Shown: positions 9,332-27,363 of the stretch, piece after piece
How the letters are laid out: the number at the start of each line of letters is the position of its first letter
How positions within the stretch are numbered: the first letter of the stretch is position 1
Assembly: GCF_014490035.1 (NCBI RefSeq)
Contig: NZ_CP061008.1
Location: forward strand, 434,001 to 498,000
Reading direction: 5' to 3'
Origin: Achromobacter xylosoxidans
GTDB lineage: Bacteria > Pseudomonadota > Gammaproteobacteria > Burkholderiales > Burkholderiaceae_B
Length of the DNA: 64,000 bases
Translations under genes and position numbers: made by a program
Notes under the pieces: model-generated
Databases searched by the model: none
Seen by the model: the letters and a program-made list of their open reading frames with translations, nothing else
Told to the model about the DNA's origin: nothing

Positions 9332-10818
9332 CGGGCGGGTCCCGCAAGATGGCCGAAAGCAGGGGCCATGCGGTCCACCAAGCCATGGAAGCTGTCGTAG
9401 AAGTCGGCGTGCGCCTGCGCTTCGGCGGCAAGGGGCTCGACCCGTTCGCATGGGGCGGGCAGCAAGTCATCGCCGCCAGGGTTTTGCGACAGCGCGGCAT
9501 ACAAGGCGGCGCCGCGCGCGCCGGTTTCGTCGTCGCCGCAGCGTTCCACGGCGTGGCCCAGAAAGCCCGCCAGCAGGCGCGCCAAGCGCAAGTCCCGGGC
9601 GCCGCCGCCCAACGCGGCCACTCTGCCCGGCACGCCCAGACCAAGCGCCGCCAGGCGTTTCAGATGCCGCGCGTGCAACGCCACCACGGCGTCGACCACG
9701 GCGCGCGCCATGTGCGCGCGGGTGTGATGCCCTTGCAGGCCGACGTATCCCGCGCTGGCTCCCGCCGGCCAGCTGCCGCCATTGATGAAGGGCAGAAAAC
9801 GCAGACCCTCGGCTCCCAAGGGCACCTCCATCGCGCAATTCACCGCCGCGGCCGCGTCCTGGAACTGCAGGGTGCGCGCCAGCCAGGCCACGTTCGCCAT
9901 CGATGAGGGGCTGTTTTCCAGATAGAGCCTGCGATCCGGATCGCCGAAGCTGACGATGGCGCCGACTTCCGGCTTCGGTTCGCGGGCCGGCGCCACCACC
10001 GCATTCACGCACCAGGTGCCGAGTACGGCCACGGCATGGCCCTGGCGTTCTGCATTCACCGCTTTCAGCGAGGCGAGCAGATCGATTGCGCCCAGCGCCA
10101 CGGGGAGACCGGCCGGCAAGCCGAAGGCGGCCGCCTGGGCTGGCAGTAGCCGGCCGATTGCGGCGCCGCTGGGCGCGATGGGCGCCAGCGCCGTGGCGGC
10201 CAGGCCGGACAGGCCGGCTGCCTCGCAAGCCATCGTGGACCAAGTCCCGGCATTGAGCGACAGCAGGCCCGCCGTACTGGCGTCGCTGGCGTCCGTGGCG
10301 ATCTCGCCGGTCAACAGGAACCCCAGATAGTCCTTGGCGAACAGCAGGTGGCGGATGCGGCCGAGTTGACCGGCGTCCGCGCCGTAGAGTTCGGCCGCGA
10401 TCAGCGACGACTGCCCCGACCATGGCCGGCAGCCGACTTCGTCATACAGCGCGTCGCCCATGCGGCGGCCCAGCGCCCGGGCGCGGGCGGCGGCGCGCTG
10501 GTCGGTCGATGCCACCGCGCGGCCTCCCAGCAGTTGGCCGCTGGCATCCAGCGCATACAAGCCGGCGCCATGGCCCGTGCAGCACAGCGCGCGCACGTCG
10601 GCCACGCGCGGACCCAGTTGGGCGGCCACGCCTTGCAAGGCCCGCGCCAGCGCCGTGTGGATGGCGTCCGCGGGCAGCTCGCAACCGCCTTGCGCCAATT
10701 GCCGATAGGGCAGCGCGCCGCCCGATGCGGCCAGAGTGGCGCCGCTCCCGGCCTCGAAGGCAACCGCCTTCAAGCCCGTGGAGCCCATGTCTATGCCGAG
10801 GTAGATGTCTGTTTTCAT
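9328..10818 (-). CDS. FGGY-family carbohydrate or polyol kinase
   Basis: The 496-residue protein has the ATPase-fold N-terminus IYLGIDMGSTGLKAVAFEAG and a C-terminal GGGARDLRLARLLAGFLGH element (near residue 405) typical of xylulokinase/glycerol-kinase-type FGGY enzymes. It should phosphorylate an imported sugar or polyol with ATP. It is first in the operon, followed with ATGA overlaps by the GlpD-like dehydrogenase and the GntR regulator. It diverges from the ABC importer genes. Substrate cannot be assigned; the GlpD-like partner argues for a polyol over an aldose. Confidence 0.88.
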   Translation of the reverse strand: MKTDIYLGIDMGSTGLKAVAFEAGSGATLAASGGALPYRQLAQGGCELPADAIHTALARALQGVAAQLGPRVADVRALCCTGHGAGLYALDASGQLLGGRAVASTDQRAAARARALGRRMGDALYDEVGCRPWSGQSSLIAAELYGADAGQLGRIRHLLFAKDYLGFLLTGEIATDASDASTAGLLSLNAGTWSTMACEAAGLSGLAATALAPIAPSGAAIGRLLPAQAAAFGLPAGLPVALGAIDLLASLKAVNAERQGHAVAVLGTWCVNAVVAPAREPKPEVGAIVSFGDPDRRLYLENSPSSMANVAWLARTLQFQDAAAAVNCAMEVPLGAEGLRFLPFINGGSWPAGASAGYVGLQGHHTRAHMARAVVDAVVALHARHLKRLAALGLGVPGRVAALGGGARDLRLARLLAGFLGHAVERCGDDETGARGAALYAALSQNPGGDDLLPAPCERVEPLAAEAQAHADFYDSFHGLVDRMAPAFGHLAGPAR

Positions 10819-16993: not shown

Positions 16994-18823
16994 TTGCAGC
17001 CTGCCATCGGTCAGACTTCCGCTTCCGCGCCGCCAAGTTCGTCCTATGCCGCCCGCATCCATCAGGTGCAGGTCGACGCATTGCGCCGAAGCTTTCCGTT
17101 CGCCCTGGCCGGGTCGCTGATCAGCGCCTGTTTTTCCGCGTTCGCCTTGGTCGGCGTGCTGCCCCAGCACGAGATCCTGCTATGGCTGGGCGCCACGCTG
17201 ATGGTGGGCGCGCTGCGCTGGGCCGCAGTGGTGGCCTACGACCGCCATCGCACCGATCCGTCGGCGGCGCAGCGCTGGGTGCGCCGGATGCTGGCCGGCA
17301 ACCTGTGTTCCGGCATTCTGTGGGGCTTGCCGTTCGCCTATTGGACCTTTTTCGTCCCGCTGGAGTACCAGCTGTTCTTCATCGTCATCCTGTTCGGACT
17401 GGGCACCGGCGCCATCTATTCGAACTACATGATGCTGCCGGTGATGTACGCGTTCGAGGTGCCGGCCTTCGCGCCGATGTTCATCGCGCTGGCGGCGCAG
17501 CCTTCCGCCATCCATCTGGCGCTGGTGACGGGCGGTCTCGCATATCTGATCGCGACCCTGGCCTTCATCCATCGCATGAACCGCACCCACCTGGACGCGC
17601 TGCGGCTGGGTTATGAGAACCTGGCGCTGCTGGAACAGGTGCGCCAGGAGAAGATAGCCGCCGAACGCAGCGACCTGGAGAAGTCCCGCTTTCTGGCGGC
17701 GGCCAGCCACGACCTGCGCCAGCCCGTGCACGCGGTGAACCTGTTCCTGGGCCTGCTGGCCAACGAGCCCTTGTCCCGGCACGGACGCTATCTGGTCGAT
17801 AACATCACCAGCGCGCTGTCGGCGATGGGCCATCTGTTCGACGCCTTGCTGAACCTGTCGCGGCTGGACGCCGGCGTCATCGAGCCTCGTTTCGAGACGT
17901 TCAGGATGCAGCCGCTGCTGGACCAGCTGAAGGCCGAGTACGCGCCGCAGGCGGGCGAGAAGGGGATACGGCTGCGGGTGCGCGCGTGCGCGGCCAGCGT
18001 GCGTTCGGATCCCGTGCTGCTGGAGCGCATGCTGCGCAACCTGATCAGCAATGCCATCGTGCACTCCGACGGCGGCCGCGTCCTGGTGGGCTGCCGCAGG
18101 CGCGGAAGCCGATTGCGCATCGAGGTCTGGGACAACGGCCCGGGGATCCCGAAGGCCGAGCAGGAGCGCGTCTTCTGGGAGTTCCATCAACTGGCCAATC
18201 CCGAGCGCGACCGCAGCAAGGGCCTGGGGTTGGGCCTGGCGATCGTGCGCCGCACCGCCAGGCTGCTGGCCCACGAACTGGCGCTGCGCTCGGAAGAAGG
18301 CCGCAGCACGGTTTTCACGGTCACGGCGCCGCTGTCGGATCCGGCCGCGGCAGGCCTTTCGATCACGGATGCCAATGTAGGACTGCCACGGGCGCCTGCA
18401 AGCGAAGACAACCTGCGCGGCAAGCTGGCGTTGCTGGTGGACGACGACGCGCAGAACCTGGCGGGCCTGTCCATGTTGTTCGAAAGCTGGGGCTGCCGCG
18501 TCATCGCCGCGACCAGCGGCAATGCGCTGTTCGAGCGCGTGCTGCCGCTGGCCGAGACGCCTGCCCTGATCGTCACCGATTACCGGCTGCGCGAACACGA
18601 GACCGGCATCCACGTGATCGAAAGGCTGCGCGAGGAATACAACGATCCCGATCTGCCTGCCTTGCTGGTCAGCGGCGACACCGATCCGGCGCGCCTGACG
18701 GAAGCCGCCGAGCGCGGCGTGCCGCTCTTGCACAAGCCCGTGCAAGTCCAGGCCCTGCGCGAGCACGTGACGGGCCTGCTGCATGCCAGAGCGGCTGCGT
18801 CCCTTACCGGAGATGCCGAATGA
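16994..18823 (+). CDS. Hybrid sensor histidine kinase with receiver domain
   Basis: The 609-residue protein has about six N-terminal transmembrane segments (residues about 30-195). It continues with a HisKA dimerisation region containing SHDLRQPVHAV (phospho-acceptor His near 240), an HATPase domain with GLGLGLAIVRR, and a C-terminal receiver with VDDDAQN, Asp in IVTDYRL (near 527) and Lys in LLHKPVQ. The start is TTG in this frame; no in-frame ATG lies nearby, so the exact N-terminus is uncertain. No periplasmic sensor loop of size is visible, so it may sense a membrane or small ligand. The response regulator follows with an ATGA overlap. Confidence 0.9.
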   Translation: MQPAIGQTSASAPPSSSYAARIHQVQVDALRRSFPFALAGSLISACFSAFALVGVLPQHEILLWLGATLMVGALRWAAVVAYDRHRTDPSAAQRWVRRMLAGNLCSGILWGLPFAYWTFFVPLEYQLFFIVILFGLGTGAIYSNYMMLPVMYAFEVPAFAPMFIALAAQPSAIHLALVTGGLAYLIATLAFIHRMNRTHLDALRLGYENLALLEQVRQEKIAAERSDLEKSRFLAAASHDLRQPVHAVNLFLGLLANEPLSRHGRYLVDNITSALSAMGHLFDALLNLSRLDAGVIEPRFETFRMQPLLDQLKAEYAPQAGEKGIRLRVRACAASVRSDPVLLERMLRNLISNAIVHSDGGRVLVGCRRRGSRLRIEVWDNGPGIPKAEQERVFWEFHQLANPERDRSKGLGLGLAIVRRTARLLAHELALRSEEGRSTVFTVTAPLSDPAAAGLSITDANVGLPRAPASEDNLRGKLALLVDDDAQNLAGLSMLFESWGCRVIAATSGNALFERVLPLAETPALIVTDYRLREHETGIHVIERLREEYNDPDLPALLVSGDTDPARLTEAAERGVPLLHKPVQVQALREHVTGLLHARAAASLTGDAE

Positions 18824-19446
18824 CGGCAGTGTTATTGGTTGACGACCACGCCATGTTCCGCGAAGCGCTGGTGATGGCGTTGGGCCAGGGCGTGCCCGGC
18901 CTGACGATCCATCCCGCGGCCAGCGGCCAGGAAGCGCTGGAGGTGTTGGACCGGCATACCGCGATCCAGCACGTCATCATGGATTTCTATCTGCCCGACA
19001 TGGCCGGGGCCGACCTGCTCAAACGCTTGCGTCAGCGCCGATCGCAGCTGCGCATCCTGGTGCTGTCGGCCTCGCAAGATCCCGATGACATGCGCCGGGC
19101 GCTGGAAGCTGGCGCGCAGGGCTTCCTGAACAAGTCCGCCAGCTGCCAGGAGCTGGCCGCCGCGCTGGAAGCGGTCAGCGAGGCGGCGCCACCGCAGCGC
19201 AGCGCGTTGTCCGCAGGTGACCAGGACGAAGCGGCCTTGCTGCGCGCGCTGACTCCGCGCCAGGTCGAGGTGCTGTGCCTGATGTGCGACGGGCTGCGCA
19301 ACAAGGAAATCTCGGAACGGCTGAACATGACCGAGAAGACCGTCAAGACGCACGTGTCGGCCATCCTGGGCACGCTGGGCGTGCTCAATCGTACGCAGGC
19401 GACGCTAGTGGCGCGGCGCGGCGGCGTGTTCGGGAAGCCGGTCTAG
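18820..19446 (+). CDS. LuxR/NarL-type response regulator
   Basis: The 208-residue protein has a receiver domain (VDDHAMF near residue 8, phospho-acceptor Asp55 in VIMDFYLPD, Lys105 in FLNKSAS) and a C-terminal LuxR HTH (LTPRQVEVLCLMCDG through EKTVKTHVSAILGTL). It is translationally coupled to the sensor kinase. Its last 62 bp overlap, on the opposite strand, the 3' end of the peptide-exporter gene. The target genes are not known; the peptide-secretion locus next door is one candidate. Confidence 0.93.
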   Translation: MTAVLLVDDHAMFREALVMALGQGVPGLTIHPAASGQEALEVLDRHTAIQHVIMDFYLPDMAGADLLKRLRQRRSQLRILVLSASQDPDDMRRALEAGAQGFLNKSASCQELAAALEAVSEAAPPQRSALSAGDQDEAALLRALTPRQVEVLCLMCDGLRNKEISERLNMTEKTVKTHVSAILGTLGVLNRTQATLVARRGGVFGKPV

Positions 19447-21562
19447 GCGGCTGTCCGCTGTCGCTGGCGACCTTGCCGGCCACGAGCGAGATCTCGCGTC
19501 CGGCTGCCGCGATCGTGTCGGGCCGGTGCGCCACGATCACCCGCGTCATGTCGAGCCTGGCGATGGCCGTGTTGACGATCCGTTCGCGTTCAAGGTCCAG
19601 GTGGCTGGTGGCCTCGTCCAGGAACAGGATGGCGGGCTGCTTGTACAGCGCCCGCGCCAGCAGCACCCGCTGCTTCTGGCCGCCCGACAGCACCGTGCCC
19701 ATGTCTCCCACCAGCGTGTTGTAGCCCATGGGCATGGCGCTGATGTCGTCGTGGATCGCGGCGATTGCGGCGCAGCGGCTGGCGCGGTCAGGGTCGTATT
19801 GCGGATCGAAGAAGCTGATGTTCTCGCCGATGGATCCGGCGAAGAGGACGTCGTCCTGCAATACCGTGCCGGCGATTCGGCGCAGGGCGGCCGCGCCCGC
19901 GCCTCGCGCCGGCACTCCGTCTATCAGCACTTCACCGTCGGTCGGCGTCAGGACGCCCAGCAGGATGTTGATCAAAGTGGTCTTGCCGCCGCCGGAAGGC
20001 CCGGTGATCGCGACCGACTCGCCTGGCTCGATCCTGAAGCTGATGTCGTCCAGCACATACGGTTCCTGCGGCCCGTACCGGAAGCGCAGATTGCGGACTT
20101 CGATGACGGGCGAGCGCGGGTGCTCATCCTGCACTGGCAACCTTTCGTCGACCGGCTCGGGTGTTTCGCGCACGATGTCGGCCAGGCGTTCGCCTTGCAG
20201 CCGCAGCATCCTCACCTCCACCAGCTTGTCCAGCAGCGCTGCCACGCGCTGGTCGAACAAGGTCTTGTAGACGATGAAGGCGAGCAGGGCGCCCACGGTG
20301 AACTGGCCGTCCAGCACCAGTCTTGCGCCCAGCCACAGTATCGCGATGGAGGACAGGCCGAACAGCAAGCCGTTGAACGTGCGGAAGAACAGCGTCCATT
20401 TCTGCACGCGCAGGTCGGCGTTGATCTCGTTGACCAACAGCGACAGCCAGCGGGAGCGCCGGTCGTCCTGATGCTGGAACAGTTTGATCGCCTTGACGCC
20501 CCGCACGGTTTCCAGGAAATGCGATTGCTCCTTGGCGGCGTGCACGATGTGCTCTTCGGTGGCGTAATGCAGCGGCGCATAGCCGGACCAGCGGGCCAGT
20601 CCGTACAAGGCCATGGCGCCCACCGCGATCCATGCCAGGGGCGGGCTGTACAGGAACATCAGCACCAGCGTGATCAGCATGACCAGGCCGTCCAGCAACG
20701 CCTCCAGGAAGGACGTCGTCACGGTGCGCTGTATGGCGTCGATGGCGCCGAAGCGCGACACCACGTCGCCCAGGTGCCGCTTCTCGAAGTAAGCCACCGG
20801 CAGGCGCAGCAGATGCGTGAAGACGTTGGTGCGCCATTGCAGGTTCAGCGTGGTGCCCATGACCATCAGCATCCAGCTGCGCGCCACCGAAGTCAGCTGC
20901 TTCATGATCATCAGCAGTCCGAAGGCCAGCGCCAGCGTGGTCAGCAGATCCCGGTCCCCGGTGTTCAGCACATGGTCCACCACCCATTGCAGGAAGAACG
21001 GCTGGACCACGGTGAGGATTTCCAGCGCCAGCGCCAGCAGCAGCACCTGCGAGAACGCGCCGCCCAGGCCGGAAACCCTGCCGGTCAGCTCGCGCAGCCG
21101 TACGCGCTTGTGATCCCGGGCCTCCTGGAAATCGGGCGTGGGCCAGAGTTCCAGCGCGACTCCCGTGAACGATGCGGACAGTTCGCCGATGGAGCATTTG
21201 CGCGTGCCGCTGGCAGGATCGATCAGCGTGGCCGAGCGGCCGTTGATGGCCGTCAGCACCACGAAGTGATTGAACTCCCAATGCAGGATGCAGGGCAGCT
21301 TCAGCTTGCCCAAGGCGCCCAGGCTGACCTTGACCGGCCGCGACGCCAATCCTAGCTGGCTGGCGACGTGGATCAGGGTGGCCAGCGTCGCGCCCTTGAG
21401 CGATACGGGAAAGCGGCCGCGCAGGGTGGCCAGGCTTTGCTCATGGCCGTGATAGCCCGCGATCATGCCCACGCAGGCCAGGCCGCATTCGGCGGCCTCG
21501 GTCTGCAGCAGCCTGGGCACGCGCCGTTTGACTCCCAGCGTCAGGCGTTCGAGCATGTTCAT
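19385..21562 (-). CDS. Peptidase-containing ABC exporter (C39 bacteriocin type)
   Basis: The 725-residue protein combines three modules. First comes an N-terminal C39 peptidase with QTEAAECGLACVG (catalytic Cys about 26), LHWEFNHFVVL (His about 99) and LIDPASG (Asp about 115). A six-helix membrane domain (about 165-440) follows, then an ABC ATPase with GPSGGGKTT and LSGGQKQRVLLARAL. Such proteins cut leader peptides after a Gly-Gly site and export the mature peptide. The start at ATG 21562 overlaps the adaptor stop (ATGA). The 3' end overlaps the response-regulator gene on the other strand. Two matching Gly-Gly precursors lie upstream. Confidence 0.95.
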   Translation of the reverse strand: MNMLERLTLGVKRRVPRLLQTEAAECGLACVGMIAGYHGHEQSLATLRGRFPVSLKGATLATLIHVASQLGLASRPVKVSLGALGKLKLPCILHWEFNHFVVLTAINGRSATLIDPASGTRKCSIGELSASFTGVALELWPTPDFQEARDHKRVRLRELTGRVSGLGGAFSQVLLLALALEILTVVQPFFLQWVVDHVLNTGDRDLLTTLALAFGLLMIMKQLTSVARSWMLMVMGTTLNLQWRTNVFTHLLRLPVAYFEKRHLGDVVSRFGAIDAIQRTVTTSFLEALLDGLVMLITLVLMFLYSPPLAWIAVGAMALYGLARWSGYAPLHYATEEHIVHAAKEQSHFLETVRGVKAIKLFQHQDDRRSRWLSLLVNEINADLRVQKWTLFFRTFNGLLFGLSSIAILWLGARLVLDGQFTVGALLAFIVYKTLFDQRVAALLDKLVEVRMLRLQGERLADIVRETPEPVDERLPVQDEHPRSPVIEVRNLRFRYGPQEPYVLDDISFRIEPGESVAITGPSGGGKTTLINILLGVLTPTDGEVLIDGVPARGAGAAALRRIAGTVLQDDVLFAGSIGENISFFDPQYDPDRASRCAAIAAIHDDISAMPMGYNTLVGDMGTVLSGGQKQRVLLARALYKQPAILFLDEATSHLDLERERIVNTAIARLDMTRVIVAHRPDTIAAAGREISLVAGKVASDSGQPPRPASRTRRRAAPLASPAYD

Positions 21563-22806
21563 AGTTTCCCCGACAGCCGCTGGGCGGGATCGAACGCCCA
21601 TTGGTACAGGCGGCGCGTCTGCTGCAGGATGTCCGCTTCCAGCCGCATGCCGGGCCGCAGCGCCAGCGCCTCTCCGTGGGGGCCGCGCGCAGGGGTATCC
21701 AGCGACACCGTGATCCGGTACAGATCCTCCTGCGCATCGCCATTCGCGGCGGCTTCATTCAATTGCCATTCGGGCAAGGCGGTGCGCGTCACGGTCTGGA
21801 CCACGCCGGACTGCTGTCCGAAGGTCTGATACGGGTAGGCCGCGAAACGCATGAGCACCTGGTCGCCGGGCGCGACGAAGCCGACGGCGCGGCTGGGCGC
21901 CAGCAGTTCGGCCTGCAGGCGGGCGCCGTCGGGGACGATGGTGGCCAGCGGCCGCTTGGCGTCCACGGCCTGGCCCGCCGCGGCGGTGACGGCGGTCGCG
22001 ACGCCCGCCTGGGGGGCGGAGATGACGACGCGGCGCCTGGCTTCGCTGCGGCTGAGGTCCACGGCAATGTCGGCCATGTCCCGGTCCAGCTGCGCCAGCT
22101 GGTTCTGTTGCCGCAACGACAGGTCCGCCAGCGCGGCCTGGCGGTTGGACAGGTCCATGGCCAGCCCGATGCGGTCGCGCAGCAGCGCCTGCAGCTGATT
22201 GCGCTGTTCCAGCAGTTCGGCGCGCTTCTGGTCGGCTTCCTCGGCGGACAGATAGCCTTTTTCCATCAGGCCGTGATAGCGGTGCGCGCTGTCTTCGGCC
22301 AATTTGATGCGGGCGCGCTGCCCCTCGATCTGGCTGTCCATGGCGGTCAGCTGGGCCTTCAGGCTGGCGATTGCCGTGGCCTGGTTGTCGTGTTCGCCCT
22401 GCTGCAGCAATAGCGTCTTCTGGCGCGCCAGCCGCAGGCTTTCTTCGCGCTGCCGGATCTGGCCGCTGATCGCCTCCTGGGTTTCGCCCAGGGCGCTTTG
22501 CTGATCGCCCGACACCACGTAGAGCACCTCGCCAGCGGCGACATGCTGGCCTTCCTGGACCCGGCGTTCAAGCACGATGCCGGCCTGCGGCACGTAAAGC
22601 TTGATGAGCCCGGTGTCGGGCGCCAGCTGGCCGCTCACGGTCGCGCGTTTGGTGTACGAGCCAAAGGCAAGAAAGAGACAGACGGCCAGCACGAAACCCG
22701 CCAGCACGGCGGTGACCAGTGCGAACGACACCGGCCGGATCAGGACGATATCGCCCAGCCCGACGGAGCGTTGTGCGGCAAGCGCCTGTTTGCGATAGAG
22801 CGTCAC
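21559..22806 (-). CDS. HlyD-family membrane-fusion (adaptor) protein of the peptide exporter
   Basis: The protein of about 415 residues has one N-terminal transmembrane helix (FALVTAVLAGFVLAVCLFLAF), then lipoyl-like and coiled-coil regions, ending LEADILQQTRRLYQWAFDP. It links the inner-membrane exporter to an outer-membrane channel. The frame is open up to 23004, but an intrinsic terminator at 22862-22891 lies inside that extension, so a start downstream is required. GTG 22806 is chosen because homologues usually begin near YRKQAL. A 17-codon frame (ATG on the minus strand near 22857) ends in a TGA overlapping this GTG, a possible coupling leader. Confidence 0.85.
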   Translation of the reverse strand: MTLYRKQALAAQRSVGLGDIVLIRPVSFALVTAVLAGFVLAVCLFLAFGSYTKRATVSGQLAPDTGLIKLYVPQAGIVLERRVQEGQHVAAGEVLYVVSGDQQSALGETQEAISGQIRQREESLRLARQKTLLLQQGEHDNQATAIASLKAQLTAMDSQIEGQRARIKLAEDSAHRYHGLMEKGYLSAEEADQKRAELLEQRNQLQALLRDRIGLAMDLSNRQAALADLSLRQQNQLAQLDRDMADIAVDLSRSEARRRVVISAPQAGVATAVTAAAGQAVDAKRPLATIVPDGARLQAELLAPSRAVGFVAPGDQVLMRFAAYPYQTFGQQSGVVQTVTRTALPEWQLNEAAANGDAQEDLYRITVSLDTPARGPHGEALALRPGMRLEADILQQTRRLYQWAFDPAQRLSGKL

Positions 22807-22861
22807 GGCGTTGGAGGCAGCCCAGGAAAGCGTGGTGAGCAAAAGCCGGCCGGCATGGCGG

Positions 22862-22891
22862 AAAAAAAGCCGCGGCGAACGCGCCGCCGCG
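22862..22891 (-). terminator. Intrinsic terminator between precursor peptide 1 and the adaptor gene
   Basis: On the minus strand a GC stem (CGCGGCG at 22885-22891 with CGCCGCG at 22871-22877, 7-nt loop) is followed by GGC and a run of seven T. It would make the precursor transcript more abundant than the adaptor/exporter transcript, with partial read-through. Confidence 0.75.
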
Positions 22892-22948
22892 CCATGAAAT
22901 CGGATGTCAGCCGGGGCATCCGTCCGATGCGGCCGGGATTCCGACTGA

Positions 22949-23125
22949 CTACTTCGGCATGTAAACCGTCTTGCCGGCGGGGAAGCTGCCTTTCTGGGGG
23001 GCAAAGGTGATGGTGTTACGGTTCGGTCCCCAGCCGCCGCTGACCGCCTGGGTTTCCTCGGCGCTCAAGGGTCTGATCTGTTGTTCCGCGTCGCGCTGCG
23101 GATCGGGTTGTTCAGTTTTTTCCAT
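22949..23125 (-). CDS. Double-glycine-leader secreted peptide precursor 1
   Basis: This gene encodes 58 residues. The leader begins MEKTEQ and ends RPLSAEETQAVSGG (cleavage after residue 31), the pattern recognised by C39 exporters. The predicted mature peptide of 27 residues starts WGPNRNT, ends VYMPK, has no Cys and is basic. An AGGAG site lies 7 bp before the ATG at 23125. It reads toward the adaptor and exporter genes. The leader is almost the same as that of precursor 2 on the other strand, while the mature parts are unrelated. Bacteriocin or signal peptide are both possible. Confidence 0.88.
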   Translation of the reverse strand: MEKTEQPDPQRDAEQQIRPLSAEETQAVSGGWGPNRNTITFAPQKGSFPAGKTVYMPK

Positions 23126-23549
23126 CTCTATCTCCTGCTGCGTGCTGACGAAGGAAGCCGCGCCAGCGTCGGCCGAGCATCGTCCGAAACGAGGCGCCCG
23201 TCGCGATGCGCTGCAAACGGGAAGCCAAGCTCCCAAACACTGGCATGCTCGGGGCGGACAGTAGCAGCGCACCAGTGCAGGCGCATCGGTCTTTAGTCGT
23301 AGGGACGGAAATCCGGCGGTCTGACCGGCGCGGTTTCGCGCCGGCCGGGACGGGAGACGGATCGTTTGCGTGCCTACGACCAAAGACCGATTCGGCGCTG
23401 CGGCTCCACTGCTACTGTCCGCGTCGGGCCGTTCGACGGCCGGCGCGTCGGTGTTCCGGTCCTTGGGACCAGGAGGCCAGCGCGGTCCGTCCGCTGAGGC
23501 TTGGCCGACGCTGGCGCGGCTTCCTTCGTCAGCACAGCAGGAGCAGGAC
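23126..23549. repeat. Mirror-image (inverted) duplicated 5' regions of the two peptide genes
   Basis: This 424-bp divergent gap is an imperfect inverted repeat around about 23338. Matching blocks sit at equal distances from the centre. They are CCTACGACYAAAGACCGAT at 23285-23304 and 23372-23391, CTGCTACTGTCCGC about 39 nt from the start of each arm, and a long block including GGCCGACGCTGGCGCGGC just before each ribosome-binding site. The arms are 181 and 180 bp to the respective ATGs. Promoter, untranslated leader and ribosome-binding site therefore seem duplicated as a unit. A CCGGCGCG/CGCGCCGG hairpin (23325-23344) lies at the centre. Confidence 0.85.
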
Positions 23550-23729
23550 ATGAAGAAAACGGAGCAAACGAACCGGCAGCAGACTGCCGGGGATCAGATC
23601 CGCCCCTTGAGCGCCGAGGAAATCCAGGCGGTCAGCGGCGGCGCAAATGGCAAGAAACCGGGGGTTCCCGGGCCGCAAGGCGGGCGCGTGAATGCCACGT
23701 CCGTGACCAAGGCGAGCTTCTATCGTTGA
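23550..23729 (+). CDS. Double-glycine-leader secreted peptide precursor 2
   Basis: This gene encodes 59 residues. The leader begins MKKTEQ and ends RPLSAEEIQAVSGG (cleavage after residue 31), differing from precursor 1 at only a few positions. The predicted mature peptide of 28 residues starts ANGKKPGVPGPQGG, ends KASFYR, lacks Cys and is basic and Gly/Pro-rich at its start. A GCAGGAG site precedes the ATG. It is transcribed away from precursor 1 and the exporter and ends before a strong hairpin. The two precursors could act together as a two-peptide bacteriocin; this is inference. Confidence 0.88.
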   Translation: MKKTEQTNRQQTAGDQIRPLSAEEIQAVSGGANGKKPGVPGPQGGRVNATSVTKASFYR

Positions 23730-23740
23730 ACGCGGGATCA

Positions 23741-23767
23741 GGCGGCATGGTTCCCAGCCATGCCGCC
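23741..23767 (+). terminator. Hairpin after precursor peptide 2
   Basis: GGCGGCATGG and CCATGCCGCC form a perfect 10-bp stem with a 7-nt loop 11 bp after the stop codon. There is no T-tract; it may end transcription or protect the short mRNA. Confidence 0.6.
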
Positions 23768-23911
23768 ATGAGGCCATAATCCAGAGACAACGGGACGGTC
23801 GAAGCCGAAGCCCCAGGCACGGAATTTGCTGCTCAGCCTACTCCGCACAGCCCTGGCGGCTTGTTTGGGTCCGCAGGCGAGGCCGCGCGCCCATCTTCTG
23901 GGAGAATGCTC

Positions 23912-24835
23912 ATGGCCACGCGAACCATCTGGAAGGGCGCGATCACCTTCGGCCTGGTCCACATTCCCGTGGGCCTGCATACCGCCACGACGGAATCGGG
24001 CGTGGATTTCGACTGGCTGGACCGCCGGTCGATGGACCCGGTTGGCTACAAGCGCATCAACAAGCGCACGGGCAAGGAGATCGAATCCAAGGACATCGTC
24101 AAAGGGGTCGAGTACGAGGACGGCCAGTACGTCATCATCTCGCCCGATGAAATCGCGGCAGCCTATCCGCGCACCACCCAGACCATCGAAATCCAGCAAT
24201 TCGTGGAGGCGTCCGAAGTCTCGTTCGTGTATCTGGAACGTCCCTATTACGTTGCTCCGATCAACAAGGGGCAAAAGGTCTACGCGCTGCTGCGCGACAC
24301 GCTGGTGAAAAGCGGCAAGATCGGCATTGCCAAGGTCGTGATCCAGACCAAGCAGCATCTGGCGGCCTTGATTCCGATGGGAGACGCGCTGGTCCTGAAC
24401 CTGATGCGCTGGGGCGACGACGTGAAGTCCGTGGAGGACCTGGATCTGCCCAAGGCCGGTGCCAAGAGCATGTCGCCCAGCGCGGCCGAATTGAAGATGG
24501 CCAAGATGCTCGTGGACGAGATGTCGGCGCAGTGGAACCCGGCCGATTACCAGGACGAATTCAAGGCGGCCATCATGGGGCTGGTGGAAAAGAAGGTAAA
24601 GGCGGGCAAGACGGAAACCGTGGTCGAGCCGCAGGAGGAAGCGCCGGCGTATGCGGATAACGTGATCGATCTGACCGAGCTGCTGCAGCGCAGCCTGCGC
24701 GGCGGGGCGTCCAAGGGGCGTGCCAAAGCCGATGCCAGGCCCGCGAAGAAAGCCGCGCCGCGCAGCGCCGCCGTGAAGAAGGCGCCCGCGAAGAAGGCGG
24801 CCAAGAGCGCCAGGCAGGCGAAAAAGGCGGCCTAG
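23912..24835 (+). CDS. ku: Non-homologous end joining protein Ku
   Basis: The 307-residue protein begins MATRTIWKGAITFGLVHIPV, the invariant start of bacterial Ku, and contains the beta-barrel DNA-ring core through about residue 250. A Lys/Ala-rich tail (KKAPAKKAAKSARQAKKAA) follows, which in related proteins increases DNA binding. ATG 23912 has GGGAG 7 bp upstream. It binds double-strand DNA ends and recruits LigD, encoded 2 bp downstream. No spore or plasmid context is visible. Confidence 0.97.
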   Translation: MATRTIWKGAITFGLVHIPVGLHTATTESGVDFDWLDRRSMDPVGYKRINKRTGKEIESKDIVKGVEYEDGQYVIISPDEIAAAYPRTTQTIEIQQFVEASEVSFVYLERPYYVAPINKGQKVYALLRDTLVKSGKIGIAKVVIQTKQHLAALIPMGDALVLNLMRWGDDVKSVEDLDLPKAGAKSMSPSAAELKMAKMLVDEMSAQWNPADYQDEFKAAIMGLVEKKVKAGKTETVVEPQEEAPAYADNVIDLTELLQRSLRGGASKGRAKADARPAKKAAPRSAAVKKAPAKKAAKSARQAKKAA

Positions 24836-24837
24836 CG

Positions 24838-27363
24838 ATGGCAGACAGCCTGAAGAAATATCGCGAGAAGCGCAATTTCGCCGTCACGCCCGAACCTGCG
24901 GACGGCGGCGATTCTGGCGGTGAAGGCCTGGCATTCGTGATTCAAAAACACTGGGCCAGCCACCTGCACTATGACTTCCGCCTGGAACTGGACGGCGCGA
25001 TGAAAAGCTGGGCAGTGCCGAAGGGGCCGTCGTTCGATCCTTCCATCAAACGCATGGCGGTGCAGGTCGAAGACCATCCCATCGCATACAACCAGTTCGA
25101 AGGCACCATCCCCAAGGGACAGTATGGCGCCGGCAAGGTGATCATCTGGGACGAGGGGCGCTGGACTCCGATCGGCGATCCCCGGAAGGCATATAAGGCT
25201 GGCCATCTGAAGTTCACGCTCGAAGGCGTGAAGATGCGCGGGCGCTGGGCGCTGATCCGCATGAAGGGCAAAGAGGGCGAGCGCCAGCCGCCCTGGCTGC
25301 TGATCAAGGAAAGCGACGAGTACGCGCGGCCTGAGCGGGATTTCAGCGTGGTGGACGAGCTACCGGACAGCGTGGTGCCGTTGCGCAAGAAGAAGGCGGC
25401 GACTGCGCGCAGCGAACTGCCAATCCGCGCCGCGAAGGCGGCAGCAGCCGTGGCAGCGTTACCGGGCAAGGCCGCCGCCCTGCCTGCATCGCTCAAACCT
25501 CAGCTGGCCACCCTGGTCGAGGGCGTGCCGCGGGGCGCGGACGACTGGTCCTACGAAATGAAGTTCGACGGCTACCGGATCCTGGCCAGGCTGGACGACG
25601 GCAGCGTGAAGCTGTACACGCGCAACGGCCACGACTGGACGGCCAGGATGCCGCGCCTGGCCCAGGAGCTGGCGGCGCTGCAGATCGCCAATGCCTGGAT
25701 CGACGGCGAGATCGTGGTGCTGACGCGCGAAGGCGTACCCAGCTTTCAGGCCTTGCAGAACGCCTTCGATGCCGCCAGTACGGCGGACATCGTCTTCTAT
25801 GCGTTTGACCTGCCTTACGTCACGGGGCGCGATCTGCGCGACGAGCCGCTCAGGCTGCGGCGGGATCTGCTGCGGCGGATCATCGCCACGAGCCAGGGCA
25901 AGCACGTGAAGTTCAGTGAGGCCTTCGACAAGCCGGCGGCAGACCTGGTCGCTTCGGCCTGCAAGCTGGGCCTGGAGGGCATCATCGGCAAGCGGCTGTC
26001 CGCGCCCTACGTGTCGCGCCGCACGGACGACTGGATCAAAATCAAGTGCACCAGACGCCAGGAGTTCGTCATCGTGGGTTACACCGAGCCCAAGGGCAGC
26101 CGCAAGGGCTTCGGCGCGCTGCTGCTGGCGGTGCATGAGCCGGATGGCGGGCTGCGCTACGCCGGCAACGTGGGCACAGGGTTCGACGACAAGACGCTGC
26201 ATGACCTGCATCGTAAGCTGGCCGGCATCGAACAAAAAGCCAGCGCGTTGATCCAAGGCAAGCCGCGCGCCCTCAAGCAGGTCCACTGGGTCCAGCCTAC
26301 GCTGGTAGGTGAGGTTTCGTTCGGAGAATGGACTGGCGACGGCCATGTACGCCATTCGACCTTCCGCGGGCTGCGGACTGACAAACCACCCAAGAAGATC
26401 ACGCGCGAGGTTGCCATGCCGGCTGAAAAGATATCCACCCGCAATCGCCCCGCCAAAGCCATAAAAGCGGGCGCTGAAACGTCTGCGAAGGGGATGAAGC
26501 TGTCCAATCCCGATCGCGTCATCGATCCCTCTTCAGGCGCGACCAAGCTCGACCTGGCGCGCTACTACGCGCTGGTGGCGCCGCTGATGATGCCGCACCT
26601 GCGCGGCCGCCCGGTTTCGTTCGTCAGGGCGCCCGCGGGGATCGAGGGCGAGCATTTCTTCCAGCGGCATTCGGAGTCTTCCATCCCGGGGGTGCTTGCG
26701 CTGCCTGAACGCCTGTACCCGGGGCATCCGCCGCTCATGGAAATATCGAACGTAGCGGCGATACTCGCTGCTGCCCAGCTGAACGTCGTGGAGTTCCACA
26801 CGTGGAATGCGCTCAAGACCGCGATCGGCAAGCCGGACCGGATGGTGTTCGACCTGGACCCTGGAGCAGGGGTGGATTGGCCGGCGGTGCAGCAGGGCGC
26901 GGAACTGGTGCGCGTGCTGCTGCAGGAACTGGGCCTGCATGGCTGGCTGAAGACCAGCGGCGGCAAGGGGCTGCATGTGGTCGTGCCGATCCGCAAGCAA
27001 TACGGCTGGGACGCCGTGAAGGACTTTTCCGAAGCCATGGTGCGCCATCTGGCGCAAACACTGCCGAAGCTGTTCGTCGCCAAGAGCGGTCCCAAGAACC
27101 GTGTGGGCAAGATTTTCGCCGATTACCTGCGCAACGGCTTCGGCGCCACGACGGTGGCGGCCTGGTCGGCCCGCGCCCGGCCTGGCCTGGGCGTGTCCGT
27201 GCCGGTCCGCTGGGACGAACTGGCGGGGCTGAAAGGGTCGGCGCAATGGACCATCGCCAACATTCACACCCGCCTGGATGCGGGCAACGAGCCTTGGGAC
27301 GATTACGCGCCCCAGGCCATCGGCCGGGCCATGAAGCAGCTCGGGGTCGAGCCGCGATCCTGA
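24838..27363 (+). CDS. ligD: Multifunctional ATP-dependent DNA ligase LigD
   Basis: The 841-residue protein has the PE-LIG-POL order. The N-terminal phosphoesterase domain carries HWASHLHYDFRLE (His about 42 and 44). The ligase domain has the adenylated Lys in YEMKFDGYR (about residue 242). The C-terminal polymerase/primase domain (from about 550) has LSNPDRV, GEHFFQRH and the acidic FDLDPG motif. It processes, fills and seals Ku-bound DNA ends. It follows ku by 2 bp, so the pair forms one operon. Length matches the Pseudomonas-type enzyme. Confidence 0.97.
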   Translation: MADSLKKYREKRNFAVTPEPADGGDSGGEGLAFVIQKHWASHLHYDFRLELDGAMKSWAVPKGPSFDPSIKRMAVQVEDHPIAYNQFEGTIPKGQYGAGKVIIWDEGRWTPIGDPRKAYKAGHLKFTLEGVKMRGRWALIRMKGKEGERQPPWLLIKESDEYARPERDFSVVDELPDSVVPLRKKKAATARSELPIRAAKAAAAVAALPGKAAALPASLKPQLATLVEGVPRGADDWSYEMKFDGYRILARLDDGSVKLYTRNGHDWTARMPRLAQELAALQIANAWIDGEIVVLTREGVPSFQALQNAFDAASTADIVFYAFDLPYVTGRDLRDEPLRLRRDLLRRIIATSQGKHVKFSEAFDKPAADLVASACKLGLEGIIGKRLSAPYVSRRTDDWIKIKCTRRQEFVIVGYTEPKGSRKGFGALLLAVHEPDGGLRYAGNVGTGFDDKTLHDLHRKLAGIEQKASALIQGKPRALKQVHWVQPTLVGEVSFGEWTGDGHVRHSTFRGLRTDKPPKKITREVAMPAEKISTRNRPAKAIKAGAETSAKGMKLSNPDRVIDPSSGATKLDLARYYALVAPLMMPHLRGRPVSFVRAPAGIEGEHFFQRHSESSIPGVLALPERLYPGHPPLMEISNVAAILAAAQLNVVEFHTWNALKTAIGKPDRMVFDLDPGAGVDWPAVQQGAELVRVLLQELGLHGWLKTSGGKGLHVVVPIRKQYGWDAVKDFSEAMVRHLAQTLPKLFVAKSGPKNRVGKIFADYLRNGFGATTVAAWSARARPGLGVSVPVRWDELAGLKGSAQWTIANIHTRLDAGNEPWDDYAPQAIGRAMKQLGVEPRS

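Follow-up and report, generated by a model that had tools for sequence, protein, structure and literature searches.

A stretch of 64,000 nucleotides (nt) from Achromobacter xylosoxidans (contig NZ_CP061008.1, positions 434,001 to 498,000; "the window" below means this whole stretch) carries a C39-peptidase ABC exporter and an HlyD-family adaptor next to two small genes, A and B, whose products have double-glycine (GG) leaders, together with a hybrid histidine kinase and its adjacent response regulator. We propose that these genes form a dedicated Achromobacter peptide export module under two-component control, in which the peptides would be the output, most likely bacteriocin-like or surface-acting, and not a ligand of the kinase. 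We place the probability of this reading at roughly 0.55, and we favour output over ligand for the peptides. Gene content, conservation, the architecture of promoter box and -10 hexamer, and the set of box-bearing genes were read from sequence. The original prediction, made from the window alone, had named the exporter, the adaptor and the two precursors, with basic, cysteine-free cores of 27 and 28 residues, and all of this was confirmed, positions included; that prediction did not include the two-component system, nor the promoter box and the other genes that bear it. The secretion part of the module is laid out as follows:

19385..21562, minus strand: C39-peptidase ABC exporter (Pfam C39, ABC_membrane, ABC_tran)
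21559..22806, minus strand: HlyD-family periplasmic adaptor (Pfam HlyD_3, HlyD_D23); a longer open reading frame (ORF) reaches 23004
22949..23125, minus strand: precursor A, 58 residues, leader ending in RPLSAEETQAVSGG (from the ORF list and its translation)
23033-23125 and 22952-23032, minus strand: 31-residue GG leader and 27-residue core of precursor A
23550..23729, plus strand: precursor B, 59 residues, leader ending in RPLSAEEIQAVSGG (from the ORF list and its translation)
23550-23642 and 23643-23726, plus strand: 31-residue GG leader and 28-residue core of precursor B
23033..23642, no strand: imperfect inverted duplication, centred near 23338, that takes in the two leaders and the two promoter regions

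Precursors and exporter occur together in our sample of 43 genomes of Achromobacter, an opportunistic genus (the window's own genome, a single contig of 6.76 Mb, is included). A search with HlyD matched 14 genomes, 13 of them with orthologues, the match in G024 (36% identity) being classed as another exporter, and a peptide profile built from 15 peptides, an alignment of 15 of the 22 precursors, found precursors in exactly those 13 (matches in G019 and G007 were set aside). The 30 exporter-less genomes yielded no credible precursor, only two weak matches inside frames of 591 and 473 residues. Much in the original prediction hinged on homologous small genes lying beside the exporter in relatives, and they do so, with GG leaders, at 13/13 exporter loci. 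Upstream of hlyD, the precursors are arranged as four divergent pairs, three tandem pairs and six single genes; the divergent two-gene layout that had drawn attention in the window is real, but it is the variant of one clade (4/13 genomes). The A type is found in all 13 genomes and the B type in nine, two of these copies (in G015 and G028) being unlinked and preceded at the usual distance by the promoter box described below, with two and three mismatches, respectively. Close to the unlinked copy in G028 (L156, contig C99) there is a frame that by eye resembles an IS3-type transposase, with which this copy may have moved. The profile has 32 matches in protein databases, and the bacterial names shown are all Achromobacter, with one compost metagenome entry and one entry automatically named 'Bacteriocin'; the organism-named relatives of precursor B (4 of 9) and the seven exporter loci with an HlyD identity of at least 75% are likewise all Achromobacter. 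The pattern of C39-processed bacteriocins or signal peptides suggested earlier is upheld to the extent that a dedicated exporter accompanies conserved GG precursors, with both types in 9/13 genomes.

The 22 cores from these 13 genomes hold 667 residues, of which 97 are basic and 2 acidic, with a single Cys among them; the net charge ranges from +3 to +6, and the grand average of hydropathy (GRAVY) is negative in every core. The two mature parts had been considered unrelated, which is not wholly the case, as the 22 cores exhibit a common pattern: every one has K or R as its fourth or fifth residue, and most have a basic and then an aromatic residue close to the end. The precursors match no Pfam family, and the search against family models that the original prediction called for returned a single model, NF038167, whose 12 bits fall short of its cut-off of 32; no bacteriocin family model reached threshold in the Pfam and NCBIfam scans. 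Pooled over four close genomes, the ratio of nonsynonymous to synonymous polymorphism (pN/pS), based on few sites, is 0.90 in the core and 1.23 in the leader of A, and 0.47 and 0.71, respectively, in those of B, with a comparison value of 0.13 for the kinase (window against the other three genomes). The near-neutral values in A would fit spurious or decayed small ORFs next to an exporter that serves something else, but this explanation is highly improbable given the 13/13 co-occurrence, the conserved promoters, the near exclusion of acidic residues from the cores, and the retention of the box, equally spaced, by both unlinked copies.

The close match between the leaders, on which the original prediction had laid weight, is indeed seen: both window leaders have 31 residues and end in VSGG, and in the four genomes of this clade the leader sequences of A and B share 67-78% of their nucleotides. 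The match is not independent evidence, however, because the leaders lie inside the inverted duplication of leader and promoter at 23033-23642, which consists of three inverted pairs around one common centre (108 nt at 76%, 65 nt at 75% and 40 nt at 95% identity). Independent convergence of the leaders was ruled out for this reason and, judging from the arrangement, the leader match is a matter of shared descent or conversion and not of two independent events.

Relatives of the exporter are bacteriocin exporters. Its C39-site Cys, His and Asp, which we take to be the catalytic residues, align with solved C39 domains, including 6mpz. Along nearly its full length it aligns with solved bacteriocin-type transporters and with ComA, although bacteriocin-type and HlyB transporters outscore ComA, and among NCBIfam models it scores best with the NHLP bacteriocin exporter TIGR03796, though below the cut-off. 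The adaptor is 34.8% identical, over 88% of the query, to HlyD of Moraxella pLQ510, which carries the bacteriocin genes mcbABCI; its probable GTG start is at 22806, and the matches in 9/12 orthologues begin at residues 45-54 of the 468-residue reference. An anti-phage function was rejected, as there were only two exporter matches, to the mad3 and mad8 models, both confined to the ATPase part.

Exporters of a different kind were also met. The one in G024 (L045; HlyD 36%) has a leader ending in GA upstream of hlyD and a predicted 100-residue core, closer to the cargo of classical microcins. In another genus, two genomes (L046 and L047) have exporters 68% identical, with a 30-residue core containing two Cys upstream of hlyD and, downstream of hlyD, an ORF that looks by eye like an outer-membrane channel gene; no close relative of the kinase and regulator was seen beside these exporters.

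Because relatives of the exporter and adaptor export bacteriocins, one may ask whether A and B are strict bacteriocins, acting singly or jointly against related bacteria, the immunity being due to a gene elsewhere or to a change of the surface. The strong cationic bias, the fast evolution of core A, the database entry named 'Bacteriocin', and the fact that the type VI secretion system (T6SS) and SapC/outer-membrane efflux (OEP) genes of relatives bear the same box would all suit this view, yet we regard it as an unlikely, if serious, alternative, as the cores are hydrophilic, no family model was matched at threshold, no immunity ORF was found in the module, and A occurs alone in 4/13 genomes. 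It follows from this last count that a strict two-peptide toxin is not general, and a two-peptide bacteriocin as the general rule was not supported.

Both peptide genes are preceded by the same promoter elements at the same spacing:

23282..23303, minus strand: precursor A promoter box, a 22-mer, ACTU-like
23258..23263, minus strand: precursor A -10-like hexamer TACTGT, 18 nt after the box
23373..23394, plus strand: precursor B promoter box, a 22-mer, ACTU-like
23413..23418, plus strand: precursor B -10-like hexamer TACTGT, 18 nt after the box

With up to three mismatches allowed, the window has only two copies of a 17-mer with one C/T position, one upstream of each precursor; two such matches arose in 0/100 shuffles, and the 17-mer is found upstream of the first precursor at 13/13 loci with at most two mismatches. 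For the 22-mer, there are 36 matches in the 43 genomes, compared with 6 for the reversed control. In the loci around the matches, TAnnnT stands exactly 18 nt downstream of 30 of 37 distinct box sites (background 0.0021 per position), a scan that required AAAG in the box and that omits one of the 36 genus matches (G001, contig C2). Sorted by 0, 1, 2 and 3 mismatches in the box, the fraction with TAnnnT is 19/19, 6/7, 4/9 and 1/2. The seven sites that lack it (in G005, G020, G027, G009 twice, G038, and G025 before the kinase gene) were set aside in our reading but are still counted among the 36 and the 37; those of G005, G020 and G027 are alike in sequence, the G005 site and the two-mismatch G009 site lie inside coding frames, and G038 is without the regulator. 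The composite promoter, at up to three mismatches, gives 36 matches in the 43 genus genomes and 1 for the reversed control, three of the matches being in the window's own genome (both peptide genes and one large autotransporter). Across a family sample of 268 genomes, at up to two mismatches, 33 matches were obtained, 30 in Achromobacter and 3 outside it, and these three resemble the coding-sequence match of G005. A text search of the literature for the letters of the box found only papers apparently unrelated by title.

Genes other than the peptide genes share the box. The third site of the own genome lies 260 nt upstream of an autotransporter of 1345 residues, and by eye the large ORFs downstream of box sites are not all alike between genomes. 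Among five tested with Pfam, those of G000, G025 and G030 have autotransporter domains and those of G021 and G024 have no match; G037 has such a large ORF as well. In G001 (by Pfam) and G004 (by sequence), the box stands upstream of the T6SS gene tssB. Its distance from tssB is 105-109 nt (L120, position 3351, and L121, position 3478), and on the same contigs a 59% paralogue of the regulator lies about 24 kb from this box. A SapC/OEP cluster follows the box in G033 (SapC tested) and G013 (efflux gene tested) and, by sequence, in G012, G017 and G025. A one-mismatch box, without TAnnnT at 18 nt, precedes the kinase gene in G025 (L126, position 2209), where autoregulation is possible.

These neighbours bring in another explanation, namely that the peptides bind the producer's envelope, autotransporter or matrix and aid adhesion or biofilm formation. 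That an autotransporter follows the one box promoter found in the own genome besides those of the peptide genes, that boxes in relatives precede autotransporters and the SapC/OEP cluster, and that the cationic cores end in a common pattern are what such a role would lead us to expect; the unlikeness of the large downstream ORFs, two of the five tested having no Pfam match, detracts from it, and as a separate explanation we hold it to be rather unlikely.

On the other side of the exporter lies the two-component system:

16994..18823, plus strand: hybrid histidine kinase with six predicted membrane helices, HisKA, HATPase and receiver domains, and no periplasmic domain
18820..19446, plus strand: LuxR/NarL-type response regulator, closest among NCBIfam models to ErdR but under its cut-off

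The regulator gene is tail to tail with the exporter gene, with an overlap of 62 nt. Regulator, exporter and box go together: the regulator is present in 13/13 exporter genomes, in each of them linked to the module, and in 6/30 others, and in 16/16 genomes that have the box with at most one mismatch, compared with 3/27 others (Fisher 4e-9), neither comparison being corrected for kinship. Here regulator-positive means an identity of at least 67%, which excludes G033 (59%), and the sets rest on our own reading of the HlyD, kinase, regulator, box and peptide searches. The kinase is found in the module of 11/13 peptide genomes, missing in G013 and G028, and also in 7 genomes without the exporter. 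At the two loci that lack it (L087 and L088), frames that by eye resemble an unrelated kinase with its own LuxR-type regulator adjoin the module. In G001 (L079), only a remnant of the exporter remains at 10239-10418, matching the last 67 residues at 79% identity, whereas the neighbouring kinase and regulator are intact, which suggests loss of the sender part and retention of the receiver.

The predicted structure of the kinase shows six long helices in residues 1-216 and no periplasmic domain (mean predicted local distance difference test score, pLDDT, 74.8; predicted template modelling score, pTM, 0.41), and a structure search with this model matched histidine kinases or parts of them, mostly over 220-370 aligned columns, with no relative of the sensor named among the best 50 of 1234. 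Residues 101-250 have a mean identity of 95-98% in blocks of 50 residues among 17 orthologues, compared with 75-78% for residues 1-100. An order-wide search is a weak negative for the kinase: among 399 genomes only two, both Achromobacter, had matches at E 1e-200, with at most three candidates scored per genome among the matches listed. A plasmid origin was rejected, as no relative of the kinase was found in the plasmid set at E 1e-100.

With kinase, regulator, exporter and peptides in one module and the box on the peptide promoters, a peptide pheromone has to be considered, in which the exported peptides bind the membrane kinase and the regulator activates the peptide promoters, an autoinducing loop that would resemble ComABCDE but with HlyD and an outer-membrane channel. 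The short and soluble cores, the fact that no immunity gene was found in the module, and the nearly full-length alignment of the exporter with the pheromone exporter ComA (other transporters scoring higher) are all compatible with such a loop, as is the ratio of nonsynonymous to synonymous substitution (dN/dS) of the regulator, which is higher towards exporter-less genomes. Against this, kinase residues 101-250 are nearly invariant while the cores vary greatly, and the sensor region is still 61-74% identical in eight named matches outside Achromobacter, with kinases of this kind in Variovorax, Paraburkholderia, Cupriavidus and Dyella. Six kinases from other genera of the family (50-56% identity) have neither a peptide homologue (tblastn) nor a box within the 18-19 kb around them, and the kinase is missing from two peptide modules and present where there is no exporter. 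Towards G001, whose exporter gene is a remnant, the kinase has a dN/dS of 0.08, which indicates purifying selection. Some covariation does exist between sensor and core A: in partial Mantel tests on 11 genomes, given exporter distance, the two sensor parts gave 0.20 (p 0.07) and, for residues 101-222, 0.37 (p 0.008). The correlation with core A is stronger, however, for the kinase core (0.64, p <0.001) than for either sensor part, and we therefore read the signal as phylogeny. Taken together, we judge a pheromone to be fairly improbable. A complete Gram-negative circuit, in which the kinase reads A and B, the ErdR-related regulator turns on autotransporters, T6SS or adhesin-type secretion, and receiver genomes without a sender eavesdrop, appears to us less probable still.

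Returning to the export module with peptides as its output, we picture its working as follows. The six-helix hybrid kinase would respond to a conserved cue at or within the membrane by activating the adjacent ErdR/CrbR-related regulator, which would bind the 22-bp box and switch on the peptide genes, probably also hlyD and the exporter, and the autotransporter elsewhere in the genome. The C39 domain would cleave off the 31-residue GG leaders, and HlyD, the exporter and an outer-membrane channel encoded elsewhere would release short, strongly cationic and presumably unmodified peptides, whose putative activity would be exerted on neighbours or on the cell surface.

Several observations weigh against this account. 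Unlike McbABCI, the module yielded no immunity-like small gene among ORFs of at least 25 residues in 22700-23960 compared by tblastn with 12 relatives, a search confined to this region; the ORFs there that recur at most loci either overlap hlyD, the precursors or the promoters or lie antisense to them. The cores are hydrophilic (GRAVY -0.12 to -0.92), whereas pore-forming bacteriocins are not known to be hydrophilic in this way. G001, G009 and G024 have the regulator and no box at up to one mismatch. Because it scores 111.8 bits against a cut-off of 390 with the ErdR model NF041830, the regulator is a relative of ErdR and not a member. Its dN/dS is 0.39-0.46 towards three exporter-less genomes and 0.13-0.26 towards three exporter genomes, a difference that would suit a tighter coupling of peptide and circuit than we propose. 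Finally, a paralogue of the regulator with 58-59% identity, present in G001, G004, G021 and G033, could serve some of the box sites.

Directly beyond precursor B, at 23912-27363 of the window, lie genes that by eye resemble Ku and LigD of non-homologous end joining.

The module would offer a short chain from a two-component system through secreted peptides to surface or secretion machines, with the box defining a candidate regulon. Should the peptides be signals, the locus would be a clear Gram-negative example of quorum sensing by GG peptides; should their targets be neighbouring bacteria, they would be an unusual hydrophilic, cationic pair without an adjacent immunity gene.

Our searches of open-licence papers listed no description of the Achromobacter locus, which we place by comparison. 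The C39 domain and the exporter architecture resemble those of the solved structures 4ry2 and 6mpz, which we take to be PCAT1 and LahT; these come from Gram-positive systems, which are not known to have an HlyD. Streptococcal ComAB-ComCDE comprises a C39-ABC exporter, a GG peptide, a kinase and a regulator, all of which are also present in the Achromobacter module, but the kinase and regulator of ComCDE belong to different families, and peptide sensing of that kind is not supported at the Achromobacter locus.

The original prediction overstated the rarity of such systems outside lactic acid bacteria, as the available portions of published accounts describe C39/HlyD export of GG peptides in other Gram-negatives, namely Moraxella McbABCI (PMC2761928) and Xanthomonas RaxX (PMC6637879, PMC8306577). 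The McbABCI bacteriocin locus of Moraxella catarrhalis likewise has an HlyD adaptor, a C39-ABC exporter and a peptide with a GG leader, but there mcbC lies downstream of the exporter, encodes 101 residues (77 in another strain) and overlaps the immunity gene, and the accessible text mentions no two-component system alongside (PMC2761928), whereas the Achromobacter locus has short precursors upstream or divergent, an adjacent two-component system and no immunity ORF that we found in the module. The raxX-raxSTAB genes come close in another respect, with a GG precursor of 60 residues, the RaxA/RaxB exporter and raxHR two-component genes nearby; according to the sections available, RaxX differs in that RaxST sulfates it on tyrosine and a receptor of rice perceives it, and RaxHR is orthologous to ColSR, not ErdR-like as the Achromobacter regulator is (PMC6637879, PMC8306577). 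Among the six module proteins scanned, a search that did not extend to the rest of the genome, there is no sulfotransferase (raxST).

The closest parallel for the promoter is CrbS/CrbR (MxtR/ErdR), which, as far as the excerpted source goes, has a LuxR-type regulator and an ACTU imperfect inverted repeat just before the promoter; the CrbR (ErdR) motif spans -52 to -36, immediately ahead of a sigma-70 promoter, and its listed sites include TACGACTAAAGTCTAAA (PMC5715377). This site resembles the Achromobacter box TACGACTAAAG(A/T)CCGAT, as the box resembles the listed CrbR sites at a similar distance, its like part lying at about -50 to -34 by our own estimate from the hexamer, a likeness judged without matrix scoring. 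CrbS differs, in the same excerpts, in having an SLC5 transporter domain and acetate genes as targets (PMC5715377), where Achromobacter has a six-helix kinase and surface or secretion genes. C39/HlyD export of GG peptides is already known, and the Achromobacter variant stands out for its promoter box and for the range of genes preceded by this box.

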